Of a DNA stretch of 64,000 nucleotides, positions 775 through 58,393 are shown piece after piece. Every line of letters begins with the position of its first letter. The stretch's first letter is position 1. The notes under the pieces were generated by a model, which did not search any database, was not told the origin of the DNA, and was given only the letters and a program-made list of their open reading frames with translations. The DNA lies in assembly GCF_026151205.1 (NCBI RefSeq), contig NC_087074.1, positions 3,596,001 through 3,660,000 of the forward strand. The letters run 5' to 3'. The DNA comes from Bolinopsis microptera. Lineage: Eukaryota > Ctenophora > Tentaculata > Lobata > Bolinopsidae. A program made the position numbers and the translations under genes.

Positions 775-3056
775 ATGATATTTTTGTTGATCTCACTGCT
801 ATTCTTTGGAAGAATACCTCTGATTGAAGGTAAGTTAGTTTAGTAGGCATATTAGGCCATCAAGGCAATCACATCAAAATAAATAAATTCATTTGTCGTA
901 TATTTAAGTTTTTACAAAAACAACTCCAACTACCAAATATTTTACATTATTTATCGCAGGAGAATCGCAGGTCAGGCCAGCTCACGTTTCTCAGAGCAGT
1001 ACTTATACTTTAAATAAGGCAGAAAACGCTATTGATGGTTATCTGACAACAGTATCACATACTGTATGTGCTTTGGACACTGATATCTGGTATAAAATGA
1101 CATTTGCTGCTATCTACTGCTTCTCTAAGGTAGTTATAGTGCAGTCTCACACAAATGGAAATAGGTATCGCATGGATGGAACCAACGTTTTTGTTGTCAA
1201 CACTGAAACAGGAACCAAAAGTCTTTGTGGAGTTCTCAAAGTTGGAAGTGGTACGACGATTGAAAGTCAGACGTACACAATACCTTGTGATCAGAAGTGT
1301 GGAAATGAAGTTAAGCTGACCCTCCGACATGACAATATATTGTATATATATGTATTTGATGCCTGCATTCACATGAAAGAAATCACGGCATTTTACACAG
1401 GTTTAAACGAGTTTCTTTTTGCAGGATTTTCCTCGTTTTATATCGGATCAGCTGTAAGATAGGAATCAAATTATGTGACACAAACATATTTATGTATGAG
1501 GTTAAATATTAAATAAAACTTGAATAAACTTTTGTAGGATGCACCAGGAAATATTATCTAGAATCACGACCATTTCAGTTTGGTTTTGTGACGGATTTGA
1601 TGTACAGAATGGAACAGTTTCACCCGGTGGCAGTGTGAGAGAGGACACAGTCGTTACAGTGACCTGTTCACGGCCAAACCGCTACGTTCTGATTGGTGAA
1701 AAGAAAGTCACGTGTCAGTTTGTTGAGGGATGGTCAACAAAACCAGAATGTCGAAAATGCGGTAAGAACCTTTTTTGTCACTCTATAAGTCTATAGCTAG
1801 TTCAATATAGAGTCGAAATTACTTATAGGTATTTATTGATCGATTAAGTATATCATTATCAGTATTGAAACTTAGCCCTCAGTTATTAATTATAAGAATT
1901 TTATTAAAAAATGCGTGATAGTCGAAAACAACGTTGTATTGCATGTTTTAAATATTATGTGGTCTGAAGAACGCAGTTTAGGGTTTGTGCAGGAAAGCAG
2001 TTCAGGGATTGCTTTTTCTCTACAAATCCCTACAATCGATTAATTGATGTGTATTTCATACGTTGTAACTTATTTTGGTCGTTCATATTATCATCTGGGA
2101 ACTTCAAGTAATATAACTTCAAGTTCCCAGGTAATTACAGGTCATTACTTACTAATATTCTCGAGGTACCAAACAAATAAACTTAACTAAAAGAAAGTTT
2201 GCAAAGATAAGTAAAGTATTTAACGAATCTAATTTCTCAACTTTATTTTAACTTCATTTTGAGTATCGTTATCCTTTAATCTAAATGATACAGTTAAAAT
2301 CATGAAATTCTTAACACTGCACCAATTACTTTCAAGTTTCATTTGTGACGTAATATATGACGTAATATTATGACAATTTTAATATTGAAAGAGATACTAA
2401 TTACTAAGTACTAATTTCTAATGAAATGAAGTTTAACATCCTTTCTCCATGAACAGATTTTAATCTCAACTCTGTGAGGATACATCACTATCAGTATAAT
2501 GAGCTCCCACGGGTGAGGAACGTTTCGTCAATAACATGAACAGCTTCTAGACAGCTGTAAAACCGGACTACAATATAAAAGATTATACAATGAGCTCAGG
2601 ACACAAGGAACTCTGTAAAATTGAAACTCTGAGTAAATAATTAACAATTGGTGCATGATCAGCAGTTTCATGATGCATCATAAAATATAACGTTTTATAA
2701 GAACCAAATGGTTTTACTAATCAATAAAATGAGTGCTAGCTATGATGGTTTTTAGCTTTTTTAAATAACCTGTTTGTTTCACTTGGTATAAAACATTTTA
2801 AATAAATTATCTATAAAAAACCAATATATAATTTTCTAAAACACCCACGAAAAGCAGGATACCTTAGGTACCCCGGTACCCCTTCTTATAATAAGGATGC
2901 CATGCCCTAAAAACAGGCAGTGCACCTTCATGCTATCCTCTCGTGGGCTTTATACGTCAAGCTTCTCTTTTGTTTCTAGTTGTGGACATTCACATGAGGT
3001 TCCTCGACAGAGGTATAGAAGTGGTGCTGGAACATAAAATTAATAAATCTTTGTAA
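775..3056 (+). CDS. secreted lectin-like protein: F5/8C (fucolectin-like) domain plus Sushi/CCP domain
   Basis: Exons at 775-829, 960-1400 and 1579-1761, with a possible last exon at 2980-3056; all junctions are GT-AG and phase 1, and the total of 756 nt stays in frame (251 aa). Exon 1 is a signal peptide (MIFLLISLLFFGRIPLIEG). Exon 2 resembles fucolectin/F5-8 type C domains: an NAIDG motif, 'VFVVNTETGTKSLCGVL', 'SQTYTIPC' and a C-terminal 'MKEITAFYTG' strand, so carbohydrate or surface binding is likely. Exon 3 is a Sushi domain with four cysteines and the Trp before the last one. The last exon encodes VDIHMRFLDRGIEVVLEHK; its final residues and stop lie on the junction with duplication unit A, so the natural C-terminus may be lost. 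Exons 1-3 are well supported; the last exon is tentative. Confidence 0.7.
1762..2979. other. intron or intergenic AT-rich sequence
   Basis: No exon is seen. Positions 2475-3035 are duplicated at 39,988-42,795. This copy has the uninterrupted GCTTCTAG site (2543-2550) and the uninterrupted site near 2866 where the other copy carries, respectively, a hAT-like MITE and a minisatellite. Confidence 0.6.
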
Positions 3057-3390
3057 GAACTCAGAGTAGAGGAATTATTGTGTATATGAAGTAATTAGTG
3101 GCGGTAATTATGAAATAATCAGTGGCGGCGATTATGAAGTAATTAGTGGCGGTGATTCCCGAGTTTAGATTGTCAGCTATTGTTCAATCCCTAAATAGTA
3201 AATATTCATCAAAATACTCATTAAGATGACAATCATCTACAATGTTTATTATAATCTCAAGAGACGCAGAAATTACTGCCTGGTAATGATGCTGGTAATT
3301 ACTTAATTAGACTGATGGTCACGCACAATCCAATGTGCCATTATTTTCAGACCAAATAAAGTCCGTTAAGGTATTCATCCAACGCTGATA

Positions 3391-3886
3391 CCTTACCTTA
3401 AGGCCAATAAATTTGGTTCACAATAAATTTGGTTACCATAATTTTGGTTACCATAATTTTAGTCGCAAATTTCGCAAATTTTTAGTCTACAACAATTTAA
3501 GTCACATTTTTCGACTTTTTCCATTCCATACGACGTAGTTTATGTCGATATGATCCTTCAGCCGTTTTAACAGAGCATGCATAATGGGATGGATCAATTA
3601 AAAATGTAATGCCCGAGAGGATTTCTAACACTTTAAGTGCAACAGGACTTTGGTACGGTTTTGTCCACTAGTAGGAACGGTGATGTCATTATATTAATTA
3701 TATAGCCCTATAAACAATGTAAGCCTAATAGTATTCAATATTCATGTCATATATGCTCTACTGAAATTTTGGTCTCCTTTAAAATTTGTCGCCGAAAAAA
3801 TTTAGTCTCATGAAATTTGGTTTACAACAATTTTAGTCAAAAGTTTTACTAAATTTATGGTAGACTAAATTTGTCGTTCTTAAGGT
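3391..3886 (-). mobile_element. TA-flanked MITE (CCTTAAG family), copy 1
   Basis: The element begins CCTTA CCTTAAGGCC, ends TTCTTAAGG and is flanked by TA on both sides. Unit B keeps the unoccupied site at 16,531-16,540 (GCTGATAATC), which proves insertion with a TA duplication. The TA target and short inverted ends suggest a Tc1/mariner-type non-autonomous element. There is no ORF. Other copies are at 4,865, 19,787, 34,395, 42,798, 50,748 and 52,221. Confidence 0.8.
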
Positions 3887-5510: not shown

Positions 5511-5703
5511 GGGGCACGAAGTGTACTGGCCTCCCGCGCAACACAAACTGTCTCTCTGAATCACACTGCCGTCACATTGGGCACCCTGAGGCTCGTAGAA
5601 ATTCTCCATGTTGGATTTACAACAGTACTGTCCGTGGGGGTCAATTCCGGGGGGTCAACCCTAACCCAGGACCCTAACCCTAACCTTAACCCTGACCAAG
5701 GAC

Positions 5704-6737
5704 TCTGACCCTGACCCTGACCCTGACCCTGACCCTGACCCTGACCCTGACCCTGACCCTGACCCTGGCCCTGGCCCTGACCCTGACCCTGACCCTGACC
5801 CTGACCCTGACCCTGACCCTGACCCTGACCCTGACCCTGACCCTGACCCTGACCCTGACCCTGACCCTGACCCTGACCCTGACCCTGACCCTGACCCTGA
5901 CCCTGACCCTGACCCTGACCCTGACCCTGACCCTGACCCTGACCCTGACCCTGACCCTGACCCTGACCCTGACCCTGACCCTGACCCTGACCCTGACCCT
6001 GACCCTGACCCTGACCCTGACCCTGACCCTGACCCTGACCCTGACCCTGACCCTGACCCTGACCCTGACCCTGACCCAGACCCTGACCCTGACCCTGACC
6101 CTGACCCTGACCCTGACCCTGACCCTGACCCTGACCCTGACCCTGACCCTGACCCTGACCCTGACCCTGACCCTGACCCTGACCCTGACCCTGACCCTGA
6201 CCCTGACCCTGACCCTGACCCTGACCCTGACCCTGACCCTGACCCTGACCCTGACCCTGACCCTGACCCTGACCCTGACCCTGACCCTGACCCTGACCCT
6301 GACCCTGACCCTGACCCTGACCCTGACCCTGACCCTGACCCTGACCCTGACCCTGACCCTGACCCTGACCCTGACCCTGACCCTGACCCTGACCCTGACC
6401 CTGACCCTGACCCTGACCCTGACCCTGACCCTGACCCTGACCCTGACCCTGACCCTGACCCTGACCCTGACCCTGACCCTGACCCTGACCCTGACCCTGA
6501 CCCTGACCCTGACCCTGACCCTGACCCTGACCCTGACCCTGACCCTGACCCTGACCCTGACCCTGACCCTGACCCTGACCCTGACCCTGACCCTGACCCT
6601 GACCCTGACCCTGACCCTGACCCTGACCCTGACCCTGACCCTGACCCTGACCCTGACCCTGACCCTGACCCTGACCCTGACCCTGACCCTGACCCTGACC
6701 CTGACCCTGACCCTGACCCTGACCCTGACCCTGACCC
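5704..6737. repeat. (CCCTGA)n = TCAGGG variant-telomere array, unit A
   Basis: About 170 tandem hexamers, nearly pure (CCCTGG variants at ~5,765-5,776, one CCCAGA at ~6,075). It is preceded by CCCTAACCC and CCTTAACCC telomere-type words. The orientation is opposite to the arrays in units B and C. Long dipeptide frames here (GS, RV) are artefacts of the hexamer. Confidence 0.95.
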
Positions 6738-7620: not shown

Positions 7621-8429
7621 AGGCTCGGATTCTATAATGGTCATAGAAGACCTCGGCTGCTGGAAAGATACAGGAATCAGAGCTATACAACTAATTGAAG
7701 GGAAAGATTCAAAGATTCTTACCCTCAAAGAACCGATGCGTATGAAAAGTGCCTCAAAGCAGCCTTGTCCTTTGGATACAAAGTATTTGCTATACAGGAT
7801 GGAGGTCATTGTGCAAGTGCAACAGATGCGGATCAGACCTATAATAAATATGGAGAGTCGAATGCTTGTGGTAATGATGGCCAAGGAGGCCCATGGGCAA
7901 ACCAAGTTTACAAAATAATGTTTTATGGTAAGTCCAATCATTGCTAGAAATCTTACTATTATACCTATAGTTTATAGTTTTAGGGAATTTTTTATGAATA
8001 AATATTTATGTAAGTCGCGAATCACAATGCTGGCAAGCATTACCGTCGCCCTTATACTCACAATACTATTTACCCCCTATACTAGTATATCCCCTTTATT
8101 GTTTTCCAGGCATTAAGACTCATCGAAAGTAGTTCAGCAGGCATTTTTAAGTTTAAAACATTCTAATTCAATGTTAAAGATGACAGGAATAAGAAATAGT
8201 TATGTGGAGGTTTTTAAGAAATTTGCGCAAAATACGCGCCAGCATGTTATACGAAATTAGGTAAAAAACCCAAAATCGCCATATTCAGGTGCCTTAAAAA
8301 CCATGTTAAAATTGAGTTAGAGATATGAAACTTTGCAGGGCGTCTAGACCTTGTCCAAATCGACTGTAAGAAAAATTTCATGTTTTAGGAGTATCGGGAA
8401 GTGGGTTTTCTGGAACCCCTGTTTTACAA

Positions 8430-8563
8430 CAGATTGTCCAGTGGCGCGGCGTTGGGCCAGTAATCGCAAGGTTGCTGGTTCAATACCCGCCATCGGCAAA
8501 ACCAACCTTGATGATTTGAGCCATACTGATGAGTCCTAATAGGACGAAACACTGTGTCTATGG
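8430..8563 (+). mobile_element. tRNA-derived SINE-like repeat with hammerhead, copy 1
   Basis: The head contains a B-box-like GGTTCAATACC (about 8,478-8,488; one mismatch to GGTTCGANNCC) and a degraded A-box region around 8,436. A hammerhead follows directly. The body is related to copy 2 and to the array at 38.5-39.98 kb. Confidence 0.7.
8521..8563 (+). ncRNA. type I hammerhead ribozyme 1
   Basis: All catalytic-core bases are present: CTGATGA (8526-8532), stem II GTCCT-AAT-AGGAC (8533-8545), GAA (8546-8548), and a minimal 3-bp stem III ACA-CTG-TGT (8549-8557) followed by C8558, the predicted cleavage position. Stem I is CCATA (8521-8525) paired with TATGG (8559-8563). The very short stem III resembles the SINE-like Sm-alpha repeats of schistosomes and metazoan retrozymes, where tandem transcripts often cleave best as dimers. 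Activity is predicted only. Confidence 0.88.
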
Positions 8564-8735
8564 ATATATACTATATATATAACACTGTGTCTATGGATAA
8601 ATATGCTCGCCTAGTTTACTAAGCTTGAGCACTCTAGGGAATGAATAGATCTACCGCAGCTTAAATGCAAAGCTCCTAACTTGTAATGAGTTTGTAGAGC
8701 ACTCTGGTACCTATGTAATTCCTTCATTATTAAGG

Positions 8736-8871
8736 CCTTGGTGGCCCAGTGGCGCGGCGTAGAGCCAGTAATCGCAAGGTTGCTGGATCGATACCCGCCA
8801 TCGGCAAAACCAACCTTGATGATTTGAGCCATACTGATGAGTCCTAATAGGACGAAACACTGTGTCTATGG
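8736..8871 (+). mobile_element. tRNA-derived SINE-like repeat with hammerhead, copy 2
   Basis: A box TGGCCCAGTGG at 8742-8752 and B-box-like GGATCGATACC at 8785-8795 (one mismatch) give a type 2 Pol III promoter with tRNA-like spacing. The hammerhead starts 33 bp downstream. An (AT)n tract follows at 8,873-8,897. The 8,583-8,735 segment is the tail of the preceding monomer, so the two copies form a short tandem. Confidence 0.8.
8829..8871 (+). ncRNA. type I hammerhead ribozyme 2
   Basis: Same sequence and pairing as ribozyme 1: stem I CCATA/TATGG, core CTGATGA, stem II GTCCT/AGGAC, GAA, 3-bp stem III. Predicted cleavage is after C8866. The core is intact. Confidence 0.88.
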
Positions 8872-9878
8872 ATACTATATATATATATATATATATAGAC
8901 GCTTTTGCAGTCAATTATAGCCTACATTTAAGTGTCCGTAGATTCAAAAGTATAAAAGATACAGTCATTTTGAACCACAGGTCTTGAAGATAATCGTTTA
9001 CACTCCAGTTTACATTATATTAAAAAGTAATTTAACGTCATCATCATCACTTGATGACGTCATCAAGTTAAGTGTTTTAAAAACTTGGTTTTTAACAAAA
9101 TAACAACTTTTCAAATCGATTTTAAACCATTAAGGAGTAATTTTATTCAAAATCTGAGGATATTTTCACCTTAGATAATTGTTCAAGCATTCTGAAAATC
9201 TACCGGAAAATTTTCCTACCTTGCTCCTTCATAAAGATATTCGCTATTGAAGTTAGTGCTTTTTTGAAGAATAATTTTATAAAAATACAAAAGTTGTGAA
9301 TTAGTATTCTCTGGTGTTGGGCCATCCCTTGGGTTGTGGAGCTCGATTGTGCTTCCTAAAGGTCTAAATTGTGTTATAGGCTAGTTTTAAAGTTGAAAAT
9401 CGAAAAGTTGCACACGTGGGGACACGCCCAAATTGATAGAAAATTGCTAAAATTACTGAAAATTGCTGTTTTTACCATTTTTATCAACTTTGGAGTCCCG
9501 TTGTGATCCAAGTTCTATATGAAATCTTCTGAAACTTTACATGCTTATTAAATTATATATAAAATACTGCTATGCAAAGATTTACGGTGATTCAATATTG
9601 TATGCGCACGCAACGTCCGCTCAAAGTTTGCACGTGCGAAAGGTGAGAATTTTGCTCATTCGTGATTTCGAATAAATTCTGCTTTCCCGCGATATTTAAA
9701 TGGAATTATATATGAATTTAATGCCAACTTGAATGAGTAAAAAGTGCCATATTCAGTCAGGTAAAATTTCGAAATCGATGAAATTACCTCCTAATTATTA
9801 ATATAAATATTAATGAAGTTATGAGTTTACATTTCGGCTTTGTAAATTATCCTGACATTATAATCAAAAAGAGATGAT

Positions 9879-10214
9879 ATTTGACCAAAACCCATAATCA
9901 TGGGTAGAGTGTACCGCTGCCAGTGTCTCTCTTTTCCAAACAAAAGGAAATGATATTAATTTGAATAACCGTCCGCAAATGCAAATTGATACCGAGAATG
10001 AAATCGGTCGCTCGCTTTTTCCATTCGATCACGGCTTACGAATTGTAATTGGTAATAAAGCTTATTGATTAGAAAAAGCGAGCGACCGATTTCATTCTCG
10101 GTATCAATTTGCATTTGCGGACGGTTATTCAAATTAATATCATTTCCTTTTGTTTGGAAAAGAGAGACACTGGCAGCGGTACACTCTACCCATGATTATG
10201 GGTTTTGGTCAAAT
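9879..10214. repeat. 143-bp inverted repeat with 50-bp spacer
   Basis: The arms 9879-10021 and 10072-10214 are exact-length reverse complements over the stretches compared, beginning ATTTGACCAAAACCC. The right arm ends at the insertion boundary with the unit sequence, so it may form one end of a foldback-type element. A transcript would fold into a long hairpin. Confidence 0.85.
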
Positions 10215-10950
10215 TAGTTTCACTGAAATTTGGGAAAATAGTTGGTTTTTGCCTTCAGAAGAAAAATTATCGGTTTAATCTAGATAAAACCTAAATCTTT
10301 ATCTGATTATCTAGATGTACATGTAAATATGTTGAACCTCCTCCCCTACTCCCCTAGCACATCCTCTCTCCACCCCACGTTCCCAAAAAGGTGATTAGTG
10401 AAGACTTTAGTTACCCTAACTCAGATATCTTCTATCCCTTAACTTAAGAACAAGATCTGATTGAATAACATTAACTGTTATAGTGTTAAGCTATGTAATG
10501 AAGGCTGAATAGTGAATATCATGAAGAAATGATTGAATAATCAAAGAGTTAAAGCAGCATTGGAGCACACAAGATTCTGTGTGACAAACATCACCATTTT
10601 AAAATCATTAAATGTAACGAATTATTAGATGTCATATTAAGATTTGTTAGTGTGATAAACTAGTTGGTACTGAAAACCCCCTCATTGCTTCAATTCAAAA
10701 GGAAATGTTGATACAATATTTTGCAATTCAAATTGATAAAAATGAAGCATTGTTGTGATGGTCAACGGAGGAAAGAGCACAAAAAGCTAAACAATAACTT
10801 TTGAGATTTCATCAACGTCTTTAGTTTATAATATTATTAAATTTTCCTTTTAATATCCAAGTATAAATTTCCGATGTCACAAGTAAAAGAATAGTTTTAG
10901 ATTTACCCAAAAAAATAATTAAATTAAAAGCGAGGATTGAAATAAAAAAG
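10215..10950. other. 3' flank of the protease gene
   Basis: Shared with unit C (55,794-56,534). No coding exon seen. Confidence 0.5.
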
Positions 10951-10953
10951 GTC

Positions 10954-12012
10954 TTACTCCTCCACCTCAACTGTACTGGTTTTCTGCAGGGAAATAGTTT
11001 TAACAGAATCACTTATCCTACAAAGGTTGTTGACCCTCCTGCTGAACCTAATGTAGCCCTGCTCCCCCCAGTTACTGCCCCAACTGTTTCGCACCTTCCA
11101 GTACTGGAAACTGTATGCCACCACCACTACTCCGTGGTTTAAAGGAGTGCCCGCACACTGCCCCACTCTGTCACTCCACACACCTGATTTATACCCGTTC
11201 AGCGCTGAAGGGAAGCTCATAGCCACTGCCACTGGCGCATCTTGGAGCGCGCTGAACAAATTGTTATCTCCTTTGATGTAGTTCACTGCTGTTATTCTAA
11301 AGGGTAGAGCATTGGAGTGTTGGCGGGCGTTACACCAACCGTCGTTCCTTTGATAGGGATAATCAGCTTCTGTGGCTAGATGATTTTGATCCCGCACTTG
11401 TCTGAGACCAGCGGGTAAACTCCCCCCGTTGGTCCCGGAGCCCTCAGTGCAATCTATAACCTCCTGCTCAGAAAGCGCTACGTAGTGTCCGGTGGTGAGA
11501 TATGCGTGTCCCTCTAAGAGCCCAACTCCAGCAAAGGCCCAGCACGATCCACAAGGGCTCTGATCCTTTATAGGTCCGTATCTGACGTCATTCGCGATCT
11601 TCAGATCAGCAGTATCTTCATCTTCATCAGCATCCTCATCTTCATCATCATCATCATCATCATCATCAGAGGTTGCTGATTCTGCTGTGTCTTGGAATAG
11701 GGCAGTTTGGTTGATACCCCGTAGTCTGTTTGCTTCTGCAGCCGTGAGGTCTGCAGAGAACGTAATACCATACTGTACATCCTCATCCATCCGATTCAAC
11801 TCGTCAGCGTTCTTCACAAAACTATTGAAGTTCTGCAGCCTTAGCCTCCTCTCCGAGCGTGAGTAGTGTCGGCTGTACGTCTTCTGGAAGTCACCGAACA
11901 GACGTAGCATAGCTTTAGGGTCTTTGACAGCCAGGCTGACCTGGTCGTCTTCTGCAGCGTAGGCTGCTGAGAGTGAGATTAATAATAGTAATATGATAAG
12001 TATGGCTTTCAT
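10954..12012 (-). CDS. papain-family (C1A) cysteine protease, unit A
   Basis: A single-exon 352-aa secreted or lysosomal cathepsin-like protease. Signal peptide about residues 1-19; an I29-type inhibitory prodomain follows (FGDFQKTYSRHYSRSERRLR to about residue 100). A strongly acidic linker, starting SDDDDDDDDEDEDADED, joins it to the mature domain. Catalytic features: oxyanion Gln and Cys in KDQSPCGSCWAF, His in NHGVVVVAYS, Asn in RNSWGSNWG. The usual cysteine of the GCxGG motif is missing (the sequence reads SGTNGGS). The acidic linker is encoded by a GAT/GAA run and is not part of ordinary cathepsins. Unit C holds an almost identical copy. Proteolysis is likely because the triad is intact; the substrate is unknown. 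Confidence 0.93.
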   Translation of the reverse strand: MKAILIILLLLISLSAAYAAEDDQVSLAVKDPKAMLRLFGDFQKTYSRHYSRSERRLRLQNFNSFVKNADELNRMDEDVQYGITFSADLTAAEANRLRGINQTALFQDTAESATSDDDDDDDDEDEDADEDEDTADLKIANDVRYGPIKDQSPCGSCWAFAGVGLLEGHAYLTTGHYVALSEQEVIDCTEGSGTNGGSLPAGLRQVRDQNHLATEADYPYQRNDGWCNARQHSNALPFRITAVNYIKGDNNLFSALQDAPVAVAMSFPSALNGYKSGVWSDRVGQCAGTPLNHGVVVVAYSFQYWKVRNSWGSNWGEQGYIRFSRRVNNLCRISDSVKTISLQKTSTVEVEE

Positions 12013-12058
12013 CGCGAATGTCTTCTCAAACTAAATTGCTCTTGTTCTTCAGGCAACT

Positions 12059-12068
12059 GGTATATATA
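12059..12068 (-). promoter_or_regulatory. TATA box of the protease
   Basis: On the minus strand the word ACTATATATACC lies about 50-60 bases upstream of the protease ATG, at a usual distance for a TATA-driven promoter with a short leader. It is conserved in unit C at about 57,640-57,649. Confidence 0.6.
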
Positions 12069-12079
12069 GTCGGGGAATG

Positions 12080-12770
12080 AACGGATGGGTGACTTCTTTT
12101 GTGTCGCTTTCGAGGTTCTTTTATTGTATAGAACTATAGAACATTCTACCGAAGCCAGTCAGTCGGAAAATCTGGTTACGATCCACATCTGTCACGGTGA
12201 CCGTGAAGATGAACACGTCACGGTTCTGTTCTTTTTAACACAGGTTAAAAAGACAAAACCGATTGGTTTACTTGATTTAAGGTACTAGTGCTGTCTTTGT
12301 GTTAATATTTTATTTTATCTCATTTTATCTTTATATTGTCTTGAGGGTGGTCAGATTTTGCATGATGGTGTAAATTGGAGGTGAGACTTGAACTGTTCTG
12401 CTGGGCGCCCTGGGAAAAGCATAATCAAATAGATGGGCACTGAATGGCTTATCTGGGCAGTGGTAAAGTTTGAGCTGAGTTTCGTGCGAATGAGACGAAC
12501 ATTCTAACTTTCTAACTACTAGATATATTTAGAGTAAACGAATATAATGTAACGTTCACAATTGCATTTAACCAAGTTACTGGTTTGCTACTGCAAGCGC
12601 GAAAGGGTTCTGCAGTTAGAGCAAATCTTTTGGTGTGGAGGAGTACGTGAACATTGTCTAGGTCTAACCGCATAGCCTTGTGGAGGAGTACGTGTACACT
12701 GTCCACTGTCCAGGTCTAACATAGCCTTGTTTTCCACGAGAGTGGCGGAGTGTTCAGCATGCATATTACT
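12080..12770. other. non-coding with a short tandem repeat
   Basis: Divergent promoter side of the protease. Around 12,630-12,720 is a ~43-bp minisatellite (unit containing GTGGAGGAGTACGTG), with two copies here and three in unit C (58,210-58,345). No gene seen. Confidence 0.5.
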
Positions 12771-12774
12771 TACT

Positions 12775-13056
12775 TTACTTTGGGCGATGCTCGATCGAAA
12801 TCTCCTCCAATCTACGTCTCCAGATGGTTCTGTCGCACATAACTGTTCGGAGATCTTCTACCCGCAACCCTGTGTCCCTGGCTACGGTGTCAAGAAAAGA
12901 GAGTGGTCTCCTCCCACGCCTGGACTGTGGCAGCCGCCAAGGAAGGATGGTAGAGATGACCTGGTCTGAAGCTCTCATGCAATGCCCAGCAAATCTGGCA
13001 CGTCTCTGTGCAACGATGGTGGAGATGGAAGGGAGGTCACCATAGATTTTCTTTTA
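12775..13056 (-). mobile_element. LINE 3' end (C-terminus of reverse-transcriptase ORF), unit A
   Basis: The minus strand encodes the characteristic C-terminal tail of non-LTR retrotransposon polyproteins: IYGDLPSISTIVAQRRARF, AGHCMRASDQ, then RRGRRPLSFLDTVARDTGL and a terminal DRTIWRRRLEE. Only about 90 residues remain, so it is a 5'-truncated dead copy. It is present in unit C at 58,394-58,675, so it predates the duplication. Confidence 0.75.
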
Positions 13057-13059
13057 TAG

Positions 13060-13550
13060 GGTTGGATGCTTCTTCCATGAAAGATTCCTGGCTTTCATTA
13101 GAAGCCTGGTGTAGCACCCGTCGAGACGCATGCATATTGATATAGCATTATATGTTATAGCTGTTTGACTACAACAAGTATTATATATATACATTGACTA
13201 CAACCAGTATTATATCATATACATAATATATAATGTATATGGTACCAGTGTACCAAAAGCTCGTCCTTCAAAATAAAAATAAATGGATGTATCAAAATCA
13301 AAAGAATAAATTAACAAGTTCGCAGTGATTGGTTATAGCTTTAGATCGCCACGAATCACTGCCCTGGACTCGATCGTTCTTTATAGCCTTTCAGCTACAG
13401 TCACAGAGCATGCGGTATGAATTATATTCATATTACAATTTGCATCAGGTTCGAAATGTTGCATCGGATCAGACGTAAATTTTGTGATTTTTGTTTTGCA
13501 GAAATTTAGAGACCGGCTCAAAGGTTAATACTTTTTTGATATTCTCGATA
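13060..13550. other. 5' flank of the PAN-like gene
   Basis: AT-rich sequence with ATATAC/TATATA tracts. A splice acceptor (TTTTGCAG at ~13,494-13,501) precedes the ATG by about 50 bases, so the coding start probably follows a 5' UTR intron. Shared with unit C. Confidence 0.45.
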
Positions 13551-13552
13551 TC

Positions 13553-14513
13553 ATGTTTGGCATGAGCTTACTGAGTGTTCAGATCCACATAATTGTAGCA
13601 GTGAGCCTGTGCAATGGACTTCCTGACAAACCAACACTTCAAAATTCTCATAGCTCTTCCCAAACTGCTGTTAGCAATATCCTGCCTGTCTCTGATCACG
13701 AGGATGCTTGCTTCAAAACAGGTCTTATTATTCCTGTACCCCCAAAAGGGCGCGCCACCAGTTTTCAAACAGCTGGCAGCTTCTATTGCTGGAGATATTG
13801 TAAGATTTCTAAATCGTGCAAAGCAATTTCTTTTGACATCACAAATTCTACATGCAGTTTGTTGAACCGATTGTATCAAGTGATTATTGAGAAATCCAGC
13901 GAGGGAAAGAGCATCACTTTAGAGAAAACATGTGTGAAAACAACAAATGGTATGAACGCGGAGATGGCGGTAGCTAAGATGAGAAGTACGGACTCGTTTC
14001 GAGGGAAAAGTACGTACTTGTACGCAACTTTGAAAAGTCCGACTCATACGACGTAGGATTCAGATAAAATTTTTTTGTTTTTGAATTATTATCATCGGGA
14101 CCGTTGTAAAATGTAATTGTTTGCCGATGTTAAGTGAACGCTGAGAGCGCCGCCAGGGAAGCCGTTACCGAAGCCACATCTTGTCACGTCAACACCGAAA
14201 CCGATGTCAAATGTAACAGGTAAATCAAATTCATCCAATTTCATTCGAAAAATTTCCTGAATCTAACACTTACATGTAAATTTGAACGATCATATTTTCA
14301 TTATTTATTGTGCATGCTATGCACTTATGCAACAAATTCCAATCTCATTTCAGCCCCGCACCCCTCGCTCTTGAAGCTGAATGGGCAAGCTCTCAATCTG
14401 GATGTGGACCTTGTGCCAATGATGAGGATGAGAAATATGTGTCTTGTGAAGGTGATGGTTGCAACTCTGCAGCTGCCCTAGCTGCTTTCTTCCTCCGGCC
14501 CTTTGATGACTGA
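13553..14513 (+). CDS. secreted PAN/apple-like plus Ly6-like Cys-rich protein, unit A
   Basis: Exons 13553-13949 (ends phase 1), 14135-14219 (ends phase 2) and 14354-14513 join in frame: 642 nt, 213 aa. Signal peptide MFGMSLLSVQIHIIVAVSLC. Exon 1 carries a PAN/apple-like region with cysteines in DACFKTGLIIP, SFYCWRYCKISKSCKAISF and NSTCSLLN. Exons 2-3 encode a Cys-rich tail with ATSCHVNTETDVKCN and SGCGPCANDEDEKYVSCEGD followed by GCN, like the C-terminal half of Ly6/DUF753-type modules. The residue before VSC is Tyr, while the related terminal exon at 48,578 has Cys (EKCMSC), so a disulfide may be lost. Without splicing, exon 1 reads on to a stop at 14,054-14,056. The splice model is inferred. 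Confidence 0.65.
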
Positions 14514-15812
14514 CCATAACACACTCATGTAAACTCTTCCTGAAGAACTTACTTAGTACGATTATAGTATGATATAGCTATTTTATGTTTAGCGTGGGGT
14601 ATTATCAAAATCATTGTTTTGTAGTCTTATTTAATGTTTAAATGCCCACGTAGGTGCTTTTTAAAAGTCATACTTAATTTTTTGGGGACACATTTTGAAA
14701 TATATCATGCTTCTATCATTATTGATTGTAAATTAATCAAATTTAAAAATTAAAAACAACTGATTATCATTTCTTTCAATACTATACAAAATTACGGCTT
14801 ACTACGACTGATATTGGAAGTACATGTAAGTTTCGAGAAAGAACGTTTTCTAGCCTTGATTTCAATCAATGTCAAATCCATCACTGAGCTGAGAAAGGTA
14901 GCAATAATTCACGATTCACGCTACATTATTATTCTATTATTGTTAGTTATCACTCAATAATTCGGTATCAAGTAAAAAATCTATAACTCCATTGCAATTT
15001 AATAATATTCGGAAGAAGCAATTGAGGAATACTTCAGCTTTTTAGTAAATTATATTGGTGTTTAGAAATCAGGGGCTTTATTCGAAAAATTTGCAACCAT
15101 GATCCATACGAGATAAATGGATTAGACTGCAATTTAATGATAACTGATAGCGATAAGCAGTCCCGGCTGGCTCAACGACCTAAATTAAATTATATGTCTA
15201 CTAGTCTTTTCAAAGCTGAGGTCACTAAGCATCTATGGAAATGTTTATTGGATAGTGAAACAACAGTCTAGCCTAGTCTCTTTGCTCCCCGTATTATTAT
15301 TCTTTTAATATACCTTCCTATACTTTCAACATCATATCACACTTCCCCCACACACCTTCTCACACATTAATGACTATATCAGACCTGTTTCTAATGTATC
15401 TGGAATTTGACGTATTGAAATACCAATTTTGACTATATGTATATCCACAGTTATTCACCATGGATTTGTTTGTTATTAAATAGTTTTTCATAAATTTTTG
15501 GATTTAGATTAATTCGATGTAATGGGTCCAAGTTACTGCGGACATAGTTCACTATGTGTTTACCGTGTTTGGGTGCCCATCATATTTTACAGATGGGGGC
15601 GATATTTTGAACAATTCTATTTTATATTCATCTATTGCTGTACTCTGTAAAATTTGAAAAGTATTTAATTTTTAAAAAATGTATGAGGCTGTTCTTTAAA
15701 ATAGCCTTCAGAATACTAATACTATCATACTGGCTCAAATTGATTAAATAGATTGAAATGATCGTTTGCTTCAATAAAACAAACGATTTTATTTAAGATA
15801 AACAAAGAAAGT
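14514..15812. other. intergenic, duplicated three times
   Basis: AT-rich non-coding sequence shared with 48,738-50,018 and 60,137-61,426. No gene or RNA detected. Confidence 0.55.
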
Positions 15813-16226
15813 CTATTTTTGTTCACAGCTATTGAGTTTGTTAACCACTACGTGTTTCGCTTCTTTATCCTCGTCCTGCCCTTCTAGCTTCTTCTTCCTT
15901 GATAATATCTGAACGTCTTCAGGAGTTTCAGGAACAGATCTCCCCGTGGTGTCAGGAAGGAACCAGACCGCCACACATGCCAGCAAAGATAAACCCGCAA
16001 ACAGGGCTAAAGGCACCCCCCTTTCTGTCAGCCCATACAGCAAGTTAACGTACTAACGTAGGGACCAATGAAGCTGCCTATCCTGGCACAGCTGGAGCAG
16101 AGACACATTATCATGCCCCGGTGTGATGTTGGAGCTAATTCACCAGGATACAAGTACATCATGATGAAAGCAGCTCCAGATCCCATGCTTCCAATAATGC
16201 TGGCCAATGTTTCTAGACTCCAAAAT
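15813..16226 (-). pseudogene. SLC22-type organic ion transporter, last two membrane segments, unit A
   Basis: The minus strand encodes the end of a major-facilitator transporter of the SLC22 type. The upstream part reads GSGAAFIMMYLYPGELAPTS then RGMIMCLCSSCARIGSFIGP (TM11). The downstream part reads LLYGLTERGVPLALFAGLSL then LPDTTGRSVPETPEDVQILS, a hallmark C-terminal motif. The two are out of frame because TACGTTAG is tandemly duplicated (8 bp) near 16,044-16,060. The same 8-bp duplication is in all three copies, so the lesion predates the segmental duplication. The 5' nine-tenths of the gene are absent. Confidence 0.8.
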
Positions 16227-20223: not shown

Positions 20224-23200
20224 ATGATGCGGGCAACAATTCTTCTTGGTCTGATAGCTTCTTCGTCAGCTGCAGGTTAGTTTTTCAAATACCAATTTTA
20301 TTGATATTCCGATTACAACTAGGTAATATCGGTTGGGCGACAATCGACCCCCGACAAATCACCCCCCGACAATTGACCCCCGACAAATCACCCCCCGACA
20401 ATTGACCCCCGACAAATCACCCCCCGACAATTGACCCCCTGACAATTGACCCCCGACAATTGACCCCCCGACAATTGACCCCGACAATTGACAATAGAAT
20501 TTAATACAATTAACATTTAACCCTGATCCTGACCCTGACCCTCAATTGTCGGGGGTCAATTGTCCAGTAGTATATAATAGAACATTTTGATTTCCTAATT
20601 TTTTTATTATACAATATTTATATTGTTATAATAATAAGGCTTATATTTCAGAGGAAGAGGAAGTTGTTGTAAATCATTGTCCTACTGATTATCCCAACGT
20701 CTACTACAACGGACAGTACTGTTGTAAATCCAACATGGAGGAGTTCTACGAGCCTCAGGGTGCCCAATGTGACGGCAGTGTGATTCAGAGAGACAGTTTG
20801 TGTTGCGCGGGAGACCAGTCCACGTCGTGCCCCGGTGGAAACTGTGAAAGCAACCCAGCACCCACACCAGGTGAGTTGGTCGTATAATTAGTATAACTCC
20901 ACTTTTGACCTATTTGAAGGCCACTTATTATTTTCATAATTGCACCGGTTTTTTTCAGCGAGTTCGATTAAGATTACAAAACTAATTGCACTGTTTTGAG
21001 AGCAACCGAAAACATCAGGGTCAGGGTCAGGGTCAGGGTCAGGGTCAGGGTCAGGGTCAGGGTCAGGGTCAGGGTCAGGGTCAGGGTCAGGGTCAGGGTC
21101 AGGGTCAGGGTCAGGGTCAGGGTCAGGGTCAGGGTCAGGGTCAGGGTCAGGGTCAGGGTCAGGGTCAGGGTCAGGGTCAGGGTCAGGGTCAGGGTCAGGG
21201 TCAGGGTCAGGGTCAGGGTCCGGGTCAGGGTCAGGGTCAGGGTCAGGGTCAGGGTCAGGGTCAGGGTCAGGGTCAGGGTCAGGGTCAGGGTCAGGGTCAG
21301 GGTCAGGGTCAGGGTCAGGGTCAGGGTCAGGGTCAGGGTCAGGGTCAGGGTCAGGGTCAGGGTCAGGGTCAGGGTCAGGGTCAGGGTCAGGGTCAGGGTC
21401 AGGGTCAGGGTCAGGGTCAGGGTCAGGGTCAGGGTCAGGGTCAGGGTCAGGGTCAGGGTCATGGTCAGGGTCAGGGTCAGGGTCAGGGTCAGGGTCAGGG
21501 TCAGGGTCAGGGTCAGGGTCAGGGTCAGGGTCAGGGTCAGGGTCTGGGACCCAGGACCCTAACCCTAAAAAAATCAGACCTATAATAAATATGGAAAGTC
21601 GAATGCTTGTGGTAATGATGGCCAAGGAGGCCCATGGGCAAACCAAGTTTACAAAATAAAGTTTTATGGTGAGTCCAATCATTGCTAGAAATCTTACTAT
21701 ACCTATAGTTTATAGTTTTAGGGAATTTTTTATGAATAAATATTTATGTAAGTCGCGAATTAGTTTCACTGAAATTTGGAAAATAGTTGGTTTTTGCCTT
21801 CAGAAGAAAAATTATCGGTTTAATATAGATAAAACCTAAATCTTTATCTGATTATCTAGATAAAAGGTTTAATACCGATAATGGATAGCCTAGTCGGGGG
21901 GTCAATTGTCGGGGGGTCAATTGTCGCACTAAACCCTAGATTTCGCGACAGTTGACCCCAGTGTAATTACATAGGGGGTCAATTGTCGGGGGGTCAATTG
22001 TCGGGGGGTCAATTGTCGGGGGGTCAATTGTCGCGGTACCGTGATATCATGCAATAGATTATAATATTATCATAACCTGTATAAGATAACGTAACCAGCA
22101 TAACACCCTTCAGTTGACTACAAGACGTACAGGATAACAACGGAAACAAAAGATGTCGATGACGCTGATACAGATGGCGACTTTTATTATACCATCATAG
22201 GGACCAAAGGAAAGACACTTGAGTACAATACTGACAACACTGGCGATGATAGAGTCAGAGGAGGAAGTGACACCCATGTGATTACGGACAACACTGAGAT
22301 TGGCGAGTTCAGATGTGTCTCTATAAGAACGGATAGTAGTGATGAGTGGCTTTTCTCAACGGTACAGCTTACCACATTTTACTCGCGCAATTTTTTTTTC
22401 GAATAATATTTAAAATTATTTTATCTACATGGCTGATACATGACAAGTGTGATATAACTGTGTTATATTCTTACGGGGTGATGGTCAATTCTCGAGTCTC
22501 GACGCAACCAACAATATTATATTGTAATGAGCAAGACGTGAATTTTCCTTTTCATTTATTGGCACTATCCATCGCGGAGTAGAGTCCGCGGCGGAGCCGC
22601 CGGACTCCGAGCGGACTCCGGCGGTGCTCCGCCAAAATGTATTTACACTGGACTCGAGTACATTTTGGCGGACTCCGAGCGGAGCCGAGCGGACTCCGAG
22701 CGGACTTTAAAGTCCGCCGCGGACTCCGAGCGGCTCCGCGGCGGCTCGGCGGAGTGTCCGCCGCGGACTAAGCCACTAGGCGGACTCCGGTCCGCCGCGG
22801 ACTCCGGCGGAGTGCTTGGCGGACTCCGCCGGACCTCTCCGCCAGACTTGAATCCGGCGGAGTCCGGCGGAGCTTGGCGGAGCTTGGCGGAGTCCGCCAG
22901 CTCGGCGGACTCCGCTGGGAGTCCGCCGGACTCCAACAGAGTCCACTGACTTCCGACCTCAGACTTCCGATCCTCGGCTAAATTTGTCACGTGACATACA
23001 ACATAGCATTTTGCAATATTGTGGTCAGATAAAAAGGTCGCTAGTGATAAACCTTAACCATTACCCTCACAATGTCAATAGTGTACAACTCTAGTCCTAA
23101 CTTTGACCCTATAATGTATATACGTTGACCCTAACCCTCCACCAAACCGTCCGCAGCGAAATATCAATGTCATTGACTGGTCACGTGACCAAAACAATTT

Positions 23201-38515: not shown

Positions 38516-38624
38516 TATATTGAATATGTATATATACTTCATATACATATGCGTAGAGCCAGTAATCGCAAGGTGGCTGGATCGATTACCCGCCATCGGC
38601 AAAAACCAACCTGATGATTTGAGC

Positions 38625-38668
38625 CTACTGATGAGTCCTACATAGGATCCGAAACACTGTGTCTATGG
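38625..38668 (+). ncRNA. hammerhead motif, array copy 1
   Basis: CTGATGA, a stem II region with two extra bases (GTCCTACATAGGATC), GAAAC, ACTGTGTC and TATGG. The catalytic bases are present; stem II and stem I are slightly altered. Predicted cleavage is after C38663. Confidence 0.65.
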
Positions 38669-38904
38669 ATAAATATGCTCGCCTAGTTTTACTAGGATTG
38701 AGAAATCTGGGATGAATTAGATCCTACGCCTCAGTCTTTAGATGTCATAAGCTCCTAACTTGTAAGAGTTTGTAGAGCACTCTAGCGTACTATGTTATTC
38801 CCTTATTATTAAGGCAATGGTGGCCCCAGTGGCGCGGCGTAGAGCAGTAATAGCAGGTTGCTGGATAGATACCCGCCATCGGCAAAACAACCTTATGATT
38901 TGAG

Positions 38905-38946
38905 CCATATGATGAGACATAATAGGACGAAAAACTGTGTATATGG
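38905..38946 (+). ncRNA. hammerhead motif, array copy 2 (degraded)
   Basis: The core starts ATGATGA instead of CTGATGA, stem II is mismatched (GACATAATAGGAC) and the cleavage-site C is replaced by A. Probably inactive as written. Confidence 0.5.
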
Positions 38947-39198
38947 ATAAATATGCTCGCCTAGTTTATTAAGCTTGAGCACTCTAGGGATTGATTAGAT
39001 CTACGCTCAGTTTAAATGCAAAGCTCTAACTTGTAATGAGTTTGTAGAGCAACTATGGTACCTATGTAATAACTTATTATTAAGGCCTTGGTGGCACAGT
39101 GGCGCGGCGTAGAGCCCAGTAATCGCAAGGTTGCTGGATCGGGATTTTTTTTTTTTTTTTTTACCCGAATCGGCAAAACCAACCTTGATGATTTGAGG

Positions 39199-39239
39199 CC
39201 ATACTGAGAGTCCTAATAGGACGAAACACTGTGTCTAGG
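39199..39239 (+). ncRNA. hammerhead motif, array copy 3 (1-base loss)
   Basis: CTGAGAG lacks one T of the core CTGATGAG; stem II and GAAACACTGTGTC are intact. A single-base loss in a core this conserved may be a sequencing error. Confidence 0.55.
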
Positions 39240-39475
39240 ATATATATGATCGCCTAGTTTACTAAGCTTGAGCACTCTAGGGAATGAATTAGATTACCGC
39301 TCAGCTTAAATGCAAGCTCCTAACTTGTAATGAGGTTTGTACGAGCACTCTGGTTAACTATGTTATTCCCTTATTATTAAGGCCTTGTTGGCCAGTGGCG
39401 CGGGTTTAGAGGCCAGTAATCGCAAGGTTGCTGGATCGACCCGCCATCGGCAAAAAACAACCTTGATGATTTGTG

Positions 39476-39517
39476 CATACTGATGAGTCCTAATAGACGA
39501 AATCACTGTGTATATGG
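39476..39517 (+). ncRNA. hammerhead motif, array copy 4
   Basis: CTGATGAGTCCTAATAGACGAAATCACTGTGTATATGG: core present, stem II lacks one G, an extra T follows GAAA, and the cleavage position is A. Confidence 0.5.
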
Positions 39518-39759
39518 ATAAATATGCTCGCCTAGTTTACTAAGCTTGAGCACTCTAGGAATGATAGAACTCTAACGCTCAAGCTTAAATGCACAAAGCT
39601 TCCTAACTTGTAATGAGTTTGTTAGAGCCTCTGGTACCTATGTAATTCCCGTATTATTAAGCCTTGGTGGGCCACAGTGGCTCGGCGTAGAGACATAATC
39701 GCAAGGTTGCTGTGATCGATACCCCCGCCATCGGCAAAACAAACCTTGATGATTTGGAG

Positions 39760-39802
39760 CCATACTGATGCGTACTAATAGGACGAAACACTGTGTCTAT
39801 GG
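39760..39802 (+). ncRNA. hammerhead motif, array copy 5
   Basis: CTGATGC replaces CTGATGA and one stem II base is changed (GTACTAATAGGAC); GAAACACTGTGTC and stem I are intact. Predicted cleavage would be after C39797. Confidence 0.55.
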
Positions 39803-40066
39803 ATAAATATGCTAGCCTAGTTTACTAAGCTTGAGCACTCTAGGGAATGAATAGATATACCGCTCAGCTTAAATGCAAGCTCCTAACTTGTAACTGAGTT
39901 TGTAGAGCACTATGGTTATATGTAACTTCCTTATTAGTAAGGCTTGGGGGGTGCCAGTGGCGCGGAGTAGAGCCAGTAATAGCAAGGTTCATAGGATACA
40001 TCACTATCAGTATAATGAGCTCCCACGGGTGAGGAACGTTTCGTCAATAACATGAACAGCTTCTAG

Positions 40067-44088: not shown

Positions 44089-47000
44089 ATGTTACAGCTT
44101 CTCAAGCTCTTTGGAGTTCTCCTAGTCTTGAGGATAACTCCTTTTGTTGGTATGTAGTCACACTTCCTAGTAAATCACCACAATTACCTTTTACCTTTAA
44201 AACAGTTTGCGTAATATCATTCTGAAAATGGTTTCATCAGATATTTCTCCTTACTTTACAGAGAAAATATCTGCATACATATTAGAGGTTGATGCTTTTT
44301 ATAACAGTATTTTGACATAATAATACATATATTTCAGTGGGAACTGACCTGCCGATAACAATAGTATCGTCAGATGCACATAGCATTCATCCGAACGCTG
44401 GCGGGCAGAAGCCAGAAAAAGCGTATGATGATGACGTGAAGACCATCTATACCCCAAAAGATCGCGGTGATTTTAGTAAAGAGAACTGGGTGAAATTCAA
44501 TTTTGGAAAGATATATTCCATCACAAAGATAGTAGTCATCAATAGGATCGACTGTTGCTGGGATATACTTAGCAACACTGAGGTAAATGTCGTCAACACA
44601 GGAACTGGTGAAAAATCTCTATGTGGAGTCATTGTTGTTAATAGCAATTCAAAAACAGTAGAGGCTCAAACATACACATTCTATTGCAATCTGGTTGGAG
44701 ATCAGGTTATGATGACCGATAGGGATATCACGGCACCATATACACTGTCTTTCGCAGAGATCGCTGTGTTTTATTCTCCTTCTGGTAAGTATTACAGTAA
44801 TTTAATATAAAGTGTTTTCATTATATTCTAATTCTATATACATATAGTGTATACAAAAAAAGCTGTATTATTATTATTTGAAGGTACAGCGGCTGAAAAA
44901 AATTGAATGCTAAATTTATAAATTGAGTTTACATCATCATCACTTACTTTTCAGCAACATCAGATGAACCGCAAGAGATAACTTCAATAACAGCAACCCA
45001 ATCTAGAACAAAAGATAGTGATGAGGATAACTTCTCTGCGGACAAGTCCTTTGACAATGACCTCTCCACTGCAGCTTTCTCATTTGGACAAGAGGGTGTA
45101 TGGCTCAACCTTGCTATGGATAAAATCTATTTCATCGACGAAGTAGTGGTCTTCAGCCAGTTTTTCACGACTTGGTTTGTAGAAGAAGATCTCTGCACCA
45201 CGAGCTTGGAGAAATTCAAAAAGTGTAAGGAGAAACAATCTGGGGCCACTGTTATGGTATACCAAGGGAATAATCGTAAACAAAAAGCTTGCGGCCAACT
45301 CGATCTCCACGATAAACTGACAAGAGAAGAGCAAACTTACAGAATTGAATGCAACTGGAAGGGAGACAATGTCAAATTCTACAAGGCTACCGGAGATCTT
45401 GTAATACATGAAGTGGCTGTCATTGGATGGGAAATGGGTAGGTTCAAATCAAAAAGAATACATTATTACTATTTTAACTTCTTGTATGGTGTCCAAAACT
45501 TTGGCTAGGGCCAACGTTTTGGGTACAACTACAAAATAAATACAAAATAAAACAAAACTGACCCAAACAATCGATCATATAAATAATAATAATCTCAACA
45601 CTTGTACTCCACACTTATACTCCTCCAAATACGAACTCTCTGCTGTGCTGGCGCAACGAGCGATACTTTAGTTCGCTTAGGGGTGGTCAGAAGATGTGAT
45701 GGCCCCGTCAAGTCTTGACGAAACTCAACATAGGTAGGTAGGTAGGTTGTGAGAAGATTTGTTATTAGAGAAAGTTGTGATGGGGTGCAAACTCCAGCAC
45801 TATGGAATCCGTGGGCAAGCTTTGCAATGGTTTAAATCCTACCTGAGCACACGTCAGCAATATGTATGTTTGAATGGTATTAAATCAGCTCTTAAACCTA
45901 TTACATACGGAGTTCCACAGGGCAGTATTATGGGACCTTTGTTATTCCTAATCTACATCAATGATATGCCAAATATCAACAGTATGATAAAGTTTATACT
46001 CTACGCTGATGATGCGAATATCATAATAAAAGGCAAAAATGCAAACGATGTTATACAAAAATTCAACCAATTCTCCCATGAGTTTGTACGCTGGGTTGAC
46101 TGTAATGGACTTGCACTTAATCTAAAAAAGACCTGCTATATGCTTTTCGGTGTTAGAAATACTGATAATACTCCAAATATTCATATTGCAGACACACAAT
46201 TAGAACGTAAAAGGGAAGCACGGTTCCTTGGCGTTATAATGGATGATAAACTAACATGGTCTAAGCATATAGCAGCTGTTAGATCAAAAATGATGCGGTA
46301 TGTAGGAATTATGTATAAAATAAAACGTCACCTATCGATTCAAATAAGGCTACAGATATATCAAAGTTTTGTTCAATCGCATTTAAACTTCTGTTCAATT
46401 GTATGGGGGTTTGCAGCAAAAAATCACATTGAATCACTCTTCTCACGACAAAAACAGGGTATCAGGGCAGTAATGCCAGGTCACATTAATTACTTTTACA
46501 AAGACGGTCGACTGCCTGAACACACAAAACAATTTTTCAATAACAATGGTATACTCACGGTGCACAGTGTTATTGTAAAAAACACACTAATTCTCATGCA
46601 CCGAATCAAACATTTCCGTAGCTCAGTTCCTCAACAAATCTGTATGACTATCCCAGAAAATGCACCCACTGCAAACTCAGATCACGTGACTGCAGCTTCC
46701 TGGTTAGCCGAGTACAACACCACACATTTCAGATCTTCGATGTTCTTCAAAGGACCTTTACTCTCAATTTATGCTGTAAATGCAAATGTACTTTTTTCCA
46801 TAAACCTTTTTAAATCGGCTACAAAACGCATGCTCTTGAACCTGCAGAGTGAAAATGACGATGACACGTGGCCCAGTTTCTTATTACATAATATTCCAGG
46901 TCTAAGAAGGTCACAACGTGTCTGAAAGTTACTGGACACAACGGTCATTATATCATTTTAGTGAATTAGTTAATTAGTTAATTAGTAAATCAGTTATTAG

Positions 47001-55720: not shown

Positions 55721-55793
55721 AAATCTTACTATTATACCTATAGTTTATAGTTTTAGGGAATTTTTTAAGAATAAATATTTATGTAAGTCGCGA

Positions 55794-56530
55794 ATTAGTT
55801 TCACTGAAATTTGGGAAAATAGTTGGTTTTTGCCTTCAGAAGAAAAATTATCGGTTTAATCTAGATAAAACCTAAATCTTTATCTGATTATCTAGATGTA
55901 CATGTAAATATGTTGAACCTCCTCCCCTACTCCCCTAGCACATCCTCTCTCCACCCCACGTTCCCAAAAAGGTGATTAGTGAAGACTTTAGTTACCCTAA
56001 CTCAGATATCTTCTATCCCTTAACTTAAGAACAAGATCTGATTGAATAACATTAACTGTTATAGTGTTAAGTTATGTAATGAAGGCTGAATAGTGAATAT
56101 CATGAAGAAATGATTGAATAATCAAAGAGTTAAAGCAGCATTGGAGCACACAAGATTCTGTGTGACAAACATCACCATTTTAAAATCATTAAATGTAACG
56201 AATTATTAGGTGTCATATTAAGATTTGTTAGTGTGATAAACTAGTTGGTACTGAAAACCCCCTCATTGCTTCAATTCAAAAGGAAATGTTGATACAATAT
56301 TTTGCAATTCAAATTGATAAAAATGAAGTATTGTTGTGATGGTCAACGGAGGAAAGAGCACAAAAAGCTAAACAATAACTGTTGAGATTTTATCAACGTC
56401 TTTTGTTTATATTATTATTAAATTTTCCTTTTAATATCCAAGTATAAATTTCCGATGTCACAAGTAAAAGAATAGTTTTAGATTTACCCCAAAAAATAAT
56501 TAAATTAAAAGCGAGGATTGAAATAAAAAA
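55794..56530. other. 3' flank of the unit C protease
   Basis: Equivalent to 10,215-10,950. Nothing coding. Confidence 0.5.
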
Positions 56531-56534
56531 GGTC

Positions 56535-57593: not shown

Positions 57594-57639
57594 CGCGAAT
57601 GTCTTCTCAAACTAAATTGCTCTTGTTCTTCAGGCAACT

Positions 57640-58390: not shown

Positions 58391-58393
58391 ACT

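Follow-up and report, generated by a model that had tools for sequence, protein, structure and literature searches.

How did two copies of a predicted self-cleaving ribozyme come to lie side by side in a ctenophore genome, and what kind of element carries them? The DNA in question, called the window below, is a 64-kb stretch of Bolinopsis microptera (contig NC_087074.1, our contig C3, positions 3596001-3660000), and the genome searched is its 264.65-Mb assembly of 232 contigs. Two glutamate receptors of this genome (L112 and L113) gave, for their ligand-binding stretches, ML032222a iGluR chains as best PDB matches (115 and 132 bits), followed by 4zdm (81 and 96 bits); both are ctenophore proteins, and no further chain exceeded 54 and 76 bits, respectively. 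With two longer receptor queries, vertebrate-type chains came first among the matches listed (60 of 354 and 60 of 198). A first-pass annotation had described the two copies as tRNA-derived repeats with RNA polymerase III (Pol III) promoter boxes and had likened them to schistosome Sm-alpha repeats and metazoan retrozymes. We find that they belong to a dispersed family with tandem units, a fixed 3' end, variable 5' ends and a TA target. It is very likely that this is a family of retrozymes inserted into TA tracts.

Hammerhead units and their copies

When the window was compared with 4,227 Rfam families, the hammerhead family RF00163 exceeded its gathering score of 34 twice, each time with an E value of 2.6e-5 (Table 1). 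Both matches carry CTGATGA, stem II GTCC/GGAC, GAA, a short stem III, and GTC followed across the predicted cut by TAT. Complete type I hammerheads cleaving after C8558 and C8866 had been proposed in the first-pass annotation, and the Rfam alignment agrees with both the ribozymes and their predicted cleavage positions. That annotation had also suggested an Rfam search and a copy count, and the genome-wide search returned at least 69 hammerhead matches, 67 of them over the cut-off, a lower bound for which 74 of 35,380 first-look candidates were scored. DNA matches of the unit numbered at least 78, with 40 of 76 first-look candidates scored, and showed a tandem spacing of ~277 nt. Copies are present on all 13 large contigs, which together make up 258.07 Mb (97.5%) of the assembly. 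Given the Rfam scores in the window and the matches across the genome, we rejected a chance hammerhead.

The repeat unit, read off a regular array, is 277 nt long, of which the repeat first described covers only a part. It comprises a head (u1-75), a spacer (u76-93), the hammerhead (u94-140) and a linker (u141-277), with cleavage predicted after u133. The two repeat copies in the window are spaced 308 nt apart and are 94-96% identical over 144 nt; between their ribozymes lies sequence homologous to linkers in another, decayed array of the window. This array had been overlooked, as had a duplication within unit 1 of 23 nt of the ribozyme's 3' part. The unit has no coding capacity. A consensus of the window units has a GC content of 45.7%, below 50%, and as a circle its predicted minimum free energy is -87.4, compared with -65.9 +/- 4.4 for 200 shuffles. 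Searches with exact 27- or 30-letter words of the ribozyme and the head found 0 and 0 matches in viral contigs. The exact ribozyme word was found 0 times in a genome-contig collection from which records of this genome may be absent, and the ribozyme string 0 times in paper texts.

The hammerhead is the least diverged region of the unit. Among 18 full units compared with their consensus, 4 of 846 hammerhead positions differed, versus 137 of 4,140 other positions (Fisher P = 1.6e-7, units of one array being non-independent). With one unit taken from each of six loci, the counts were 0/282 and 43/1,380 (P = 6e-4). At 21 loci with both head and ribozyme, differences were found at 28 of 987 and 201 of 1,953 positions, respectively. 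The decayed array (L047; 3 full units, 4 head copies) was left out of these divergence counts, and some loci were located via their ribozyme, which may bias the measured conservation toward it.

Insertion ends and the TA target

To describe the insertions we fetched 49 loci around listed places, which gave 55 element segments. The segments are partly dependent: L039, a single insertion split by a later transposon, is counted twice, and L044/L045, L072/L073, L074/L075 and both segments of L077 are apparent duplicated loci. Segment lengths range from 39 to 1,810 nt, more than one unit is present in 20 of the 55, and arrays reach ~6.5 units. Regardless of 5' truncation, the 3' end lies at u140-149 in 50 segments; the exceptions are the split insertion L039, the second window array L047, L058, L069 and L085. 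Because these 50 segments run through the cleavage site and end 7-16 nt beyond it, a linear monomer cut at that site is excluded as their source. The 5' ends are scattered, with 6/55 near the head start (u266-u5), 5/55 at u129-145 and the largest bin (n = 17) at u29-56.

The ends adjoin alternating TA sequence. Of the 55 segments, 42 have a TA tract of at least 8 nt no more than 40 nt from the 3' end, 33 have one at that distance from the 5' end, 50 at either end and 25 at both; the 3' test stretch was 48 nt, 8 nt of them element. Such tracts occur in 1.1% of 5,000 40-mers from the window and in 1.5% of 40-mers from the distal flanks of the loci. Longer tracts are scarce, with one of at least 12 nt in the 64-kb window. 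The share of TA and AT dinucleotides pointed the same way (flank means 0.48 and 0.56 versus 0.19) and was weaker than the tract test, reaching 0.6 or more in 27/55 3' flanks and 15/55 5' flanks. At most junctions the element reads GGAT and is followed by target-like TA.

Unoccupied sites indicate which came first. The 2.19-kb stretch around the first window insertion has no counterpart in either of its two paralogous segments, near 21760 and near 55795. This stretch belongs to a dispersed repeat, and at 18 other genomic places both flanks of that repeat are joined by an unoccupied, mostly TA-rich tract, whereas a control pattern gave 0. Between these same flanks a retrozyme lies at five loci (L046, L055, L079, L080 and L082, judged by eye), in both orientations and with differing 5' ends; at L046, the window insertion, the left flank is incomplete and lacks its tract. 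The unoccupied TA tracts at the same host repeat indicate that the tract pre-exists and is therefore a target rather than a tail. Since insertion falls in TA tracts, target-site duplications, which exceed 4 bp when present in metazoan non-LTR retrozymes, are concealed.

Could the family instead be a satellite that spread at the DNA level, through unequal exchange or repair of broken TA tracts, with no reverse transcription? TA tracts are fragile, and the arrays of several units would suit such a process. We consider it highly improbable, because it accounts poorly for one fixed end combined with scattered other ends on all 13 large contigs, and for a ribozyme that is the least diverged part.

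The TA-rich tract inside this dispersed repeat has received insertions repeatedly, as seen in the window and at L046, L055, L062, L076, L077, L079, L080, L082 and L086. In the window, the repeat terminates in a palindrome of 330 nt (9881-10211); L042, L062 and L086 likewise have palindrome-like ends next to (TA)n. At L039, positions 907-3873 form a transposon-like stretch with inverted ends (TACAGACAGATCC...) within the hammerhead of one retrozyme copy.

A probable circular template and a candidate enzyme

If the tract is a target, what RNA was copied into it? One alternative is an ordinary short interspersed element (SINE), in which a linear Pol III transcript with a flank-derived (UA)n tail is retroposed by a long interspersed element (LINE) or a Penelope-like element (PLE), multimers come from array transcripts and the hammerhead is incidental. 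The promoter boxes proposed in the first-pass annotation bear on this point. In the second repeat an A-box-like TGGCCCAGTGG (8742) and a B-box-like GATCGATAC (8786) stand in order, as a SINE would have them; in the first the A box is broken because the copy is truncated to u13. Sm-alpha repeats also carry Pol III boxes. Of 37 distinct head copies, 22 retain both box-like motifs. With a strict A box, one box pair is present in the 64 kb, where 30 Markov samples averaged 0.2 (maximum 1); a looser A box also gives one, compared with 1.2 by chance, which makes this a weak test. The unit contains no TTTT, so Pol III read-through is possible. Judging from these motifs, Pol III transcription of the unit is possible.

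The proposed tRNA origin of the head did not hold up. Covariance models gave no tRNA match in 7800-9600 at E up to 5, nor in five loci with further copies at E up to 10, and ARAGORN called no tRNA in the window, loosened settings giving low-scoring calls only. The predicted fold of the head is a long hairpin with a GCAA loop, and RNAalifold on the 37 head copies was uninformative. We therefore regard a tRNA origin as unsupported. A SINE would also fit the 5' truncation and the single fixed 3' end. However, the head matches no tRNA model, 5' ends close to the start of the head are very few, divergence is lowest in the hammerhead, and the TA tracts at unoccupied host sites are target, not tail. 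These data make an ordinary SINE unlikely.

The template was instead probably circular. Around the circle, the best 8-nt match to (TA)n is ATAAATAT at u139-146, which matches at 7 of 8 positions compared with 6 of 8 elsewhere and coincides with the fixed 3' end. That end would be explained most simply if a nicked (TA)n strand primed synthesis here, inside the unit; with a circular template nothing else would be required. The homogeneity of arrays can be expressed as the number of columns that are fixed but non-consensus, over the number that vary within the array. These were 15/3 in L066 (a comparison of two full units), 4/1 in L040, 0/12 in L059, 2/51 in L079 and 1/103 in L047. By this measure L066 and L040 resemble the product of repeated copying of a single circle; L059, L079 and L047 are neutral, or blurred by later change.

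We lean towards the view that the repeats are insertions of a non-autonomous retrozyme without long terminal repeats (LTRs), whose circular RNA was primed by (TA)n and copied by a Penelope-like enzyme. Transcription, whether started at the unit's own Pol III-like boxes or reading through from outside, would yield a multimer of the 277-nt unit, which the hammerheads would cut to unit length. A host ligase would then close the unit RNA into circles. A nick in genomic (TA)n would supply a primer to pair with AUAAAUAU (u139-146), the 8-nt stretch of the unit most complementary to (TA)n, and reverse transcription would proceed around the circle for anything from part of a turn to more than six turns before the product is sealed into the same (TA)n tract. 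More tentatively, the circle could act as an endless template for the PLE, extended round several times from this one pairing.

A Penelope-like enzyme is also the likely mover when considered apart from the form of the template. The genome contains at least 147 GIY-YIG matches (150 of 524 candidates scored). Locus L108 encodes a 1,002-aa open reading frame (ORF) with a C-terminal GIY-YIG domain (E = 4e-7) and with reverse transcriptase-like motifs, read by eye against known Penelope motifs; the ORF had no match among reverse transcriptase profiles, NCBIfam or PDB. The exact 3' end of L108 occurs 62 times forward and 56 times in reverse. Of the forward ends, 58 are followed by (AT)5 no more than 8 nt away; the reverse (AT)5 count of 153 is inflated because one place matches with several gap lengths. 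PLE sequence lies within 100 nt of 11/55 retrozyme segments (10/49 loci), and there was no PLE match in the window itself. The two are separated only by a TA-rich tract of 13-22 nt at L060, L068, L070 and L081, their matches meet within one tract at L053, L061 (two) and L087, and other sequence lies between them at L052, L072 and L073. Based on the shared target and the side-by-side insertions, the enzyme is probably that of this abundant (TA)n-targeting PLE. Other PLEs may favour microsatellites as well.

The retrozyme could have been moved in the way described by another reverse transcriptase, such as that of a LINE family, with (TA)n tracts simply being open to many elements. Several unrelated repeats adjoin these tracts, the PLE and the retrozyme have no common sequence, and a LINE with at least 40 copies is present in the genome. 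We nevertheless find this rather unlikely, as TA tracts are scarce and nearly every forward copy of the PLE, an endonuclease-bearing retroelement, has its 3' end at such a tract.

Several observations weigh against a circular template primed at (TA)n by the PLE enzyme. The preference for u139 depends on match length: over 10 nt it scores 7, no better than other places, and over 12 nt the highest (TA)n score, 9, belongs to the overlapping u134-135. The two flanks of an insertion are only slightly more alike than flanks compared across loci (permutation P = 0.05). An internally primed linear multimer would leave copies just like those seen, and array homogeneity is mixed over the five arrays. 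Other transposons, along with the unrelated repeats, adjoin the tracts as well, and the shared TA target may be a common soft spot. The ends of the PLE and the retrozyme share no sequence beyond that of shuffles. Scans of PLE loci, one of L108, L101 and L106 and one of 17 loci (L101 is in both), detected no hammerhead. PLEs with hammerheads, often in their terminal repeats, were reportedly described by Cervera and de la Pena in 2014. Compared with those, the scanned PLE loci of this genome are without a detectable hammerhead, and what the PLE shares with the non-coding retrozyme is its (TA)n tracts.

Additional repeats were seen near these elements. A short repeat with AGTCAGCCACAACTATCAGTAAAACAACGCCTTGAC adjoins (TA)n near retrozyme and PLE copies (L072 439-594, L073 644-690, L051, L067, L070, and L108 from 4329 onward). 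Other GIY-YIG groups have long open frames (L109, L110 and others; profile span 1-54 or 2-48), with the endonuclease possibly N-terminal. The L109 and L110 stretches, probably taken from the wrong side, wholly contain no ATG-started ORF of 150 aa. Within the window, 45753-46925 is a non-LTR reverse transcriptase fragment (RVT_1, E = 3e-16); most of the 40 copies listed for the 3' region of this LINE are 94-96% identical, and the query used to count them stopped short of the element end.

Window features and known retrozymes

Table 1. Retrozyme features of the window (RF00163 gathering score 34)
Feature	Position	Strand	Basis
Retrozyme insertion 1 (locus L046): u13-277 + u1-141, then (TA)n tract	8438..8897	+	
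First-unit head, truncated at u13; B-box-like GTTCAATAC at 8478	8438..8500	+	
Type I hammerhead ribozyme 1; predicted cleavage after C8558	8519..8565	+	RF00163, 35.9 bits
Partial duplication, family D2: AACACTGTGTCTATGGATA at 8548, repeated 33 nt further; TA tract between	8548..8603	+	
Unit linker u141-277	8599..8733	+	aligned with second array and genomic copies
Second-unit head u1-75; A-box-like motif 8742-8752, B-box-like motif 8786-8794	8734..8808	+	
Type I hammerhead ribozyme 2; predicted cleavage after C8866	8827..8873	+	RF00163, 35.9 bits
Alternating TA tract adjoining the fixed 3' end	8875..8897	.	only alternating tract of at least 12 nt in the window
2.19-kb stretch with insertion 1; belongs to dispersed repeat	8023..10212	.	
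Second retrozyme array (locus L047): five units and a sixth piece ending at u48	38551..39989	+	
Decayed hammerhead, array 2	38622..38670	+	RF00163, 30.9 bits, below gathering score
Decayed hammerhead, array 2	39198..39241	+	RF00163, 26.8 bits, below gathering score
Two decayed hammerheads, halves merged into a single match	39474..39803	+	RF00163, 29.4 bits, below gathering score

The second array begins with a unit truncated at u24 and carries many substitutions and indels. It and L059 both start at u24 behind similar CATATACATAT flanks, and from this resemblance the two arrays may derive from a single insertion. Divergence within L047 is 24%, far above that within L059, owing to age or assembly error. 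Elsewhere in the window, CAGGGT hexamer arrays occupy 5658-6737 (~180 copies), 21015-21548 (~89) and 53450-54065 (~102), within related duplicated segments. A 5.6-kb duplication (10212-15813 and 55793-61426, 98% identical) holds a papain-family protease frame with an acidic run and a weak PAN-domain frame.

The family resembles the metazoan non-LTR retrozymes, which passages of Cervera and de la Pena 2020 (PMC7229834) describe as tandem repeats of 150-450 bp that occur as dimers to multimers and form circular RNAs. Circular retrozyme RNAs have been reported for coral, mussel and axolotl elements. Both groups have type I hammerheads, short tandem repeats, low GC, dimers to multimers and no LTRs, as well as PLEs in the same genome and a predicted self-paired circle. 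The Bolinopsis family differs from the retrozymes in those passages in having a ctenophore host, in inserting at a defined sequence, (TA)n, and in ending 3' at one constant place that resembles (TA)n. A comparable insertion or microsatellite target is not described in the relevant passages of PMC7229834, PMC7761336 and PMC4918200, the last of which mention 15-bp duplications in Nematostella.

The parallel drawn earlier stands in that these are dispersed tandem type I hammerhead repeats in an animal that is not a flatworm; what they have in common with Sm-alpha is their layout. In schistosomes, a type I hammerhead within a SINE-like dispersed tandem repeat is described in passages of PMC8490949 and PMC4918200. 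The difference lies in the head: in the passages of PMC4918200, tRNA sequence is reported in the schistosome repeats only, whereas the ctenophore head fits no tRNA model. Plant LTR retrozymes, as portrayed in parts of PMC4918200, are likewise non-autonomous and hammerhead-bearing, with circular RNA intermediates reported, but have type III ribozymes, LTRs, a primer-binding site and 4-bp target duplications. In the open-access literature searched, hammerhead ribozymes and ctenophores were mentioned together only in PMC10886601, whose relevant passages concern Helenus LTR elements.

The family thus extends hammerhead retrozymes to a ctenophore. In its passages on the subject, the review PMC7761336 leaves the partner enzyme of animal retrozymes open: no motif gave the partner away, and promoters were apparently lacking. 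PLEs are put forward in the Discussion of PMC7229834 as strong candidates for mobilising these elements. The anatomy described here gives a target, a start of reverse transcription and a candidate enzyme, and the identity of the mobilising enzyme becomes a question for a bench assay. If the proposed route is true, it would reveal together where animal retrozymes insert, where their copying is primed and what machinery moves them, and would do so in a lineage regarded as the sister group of the remaining animals.
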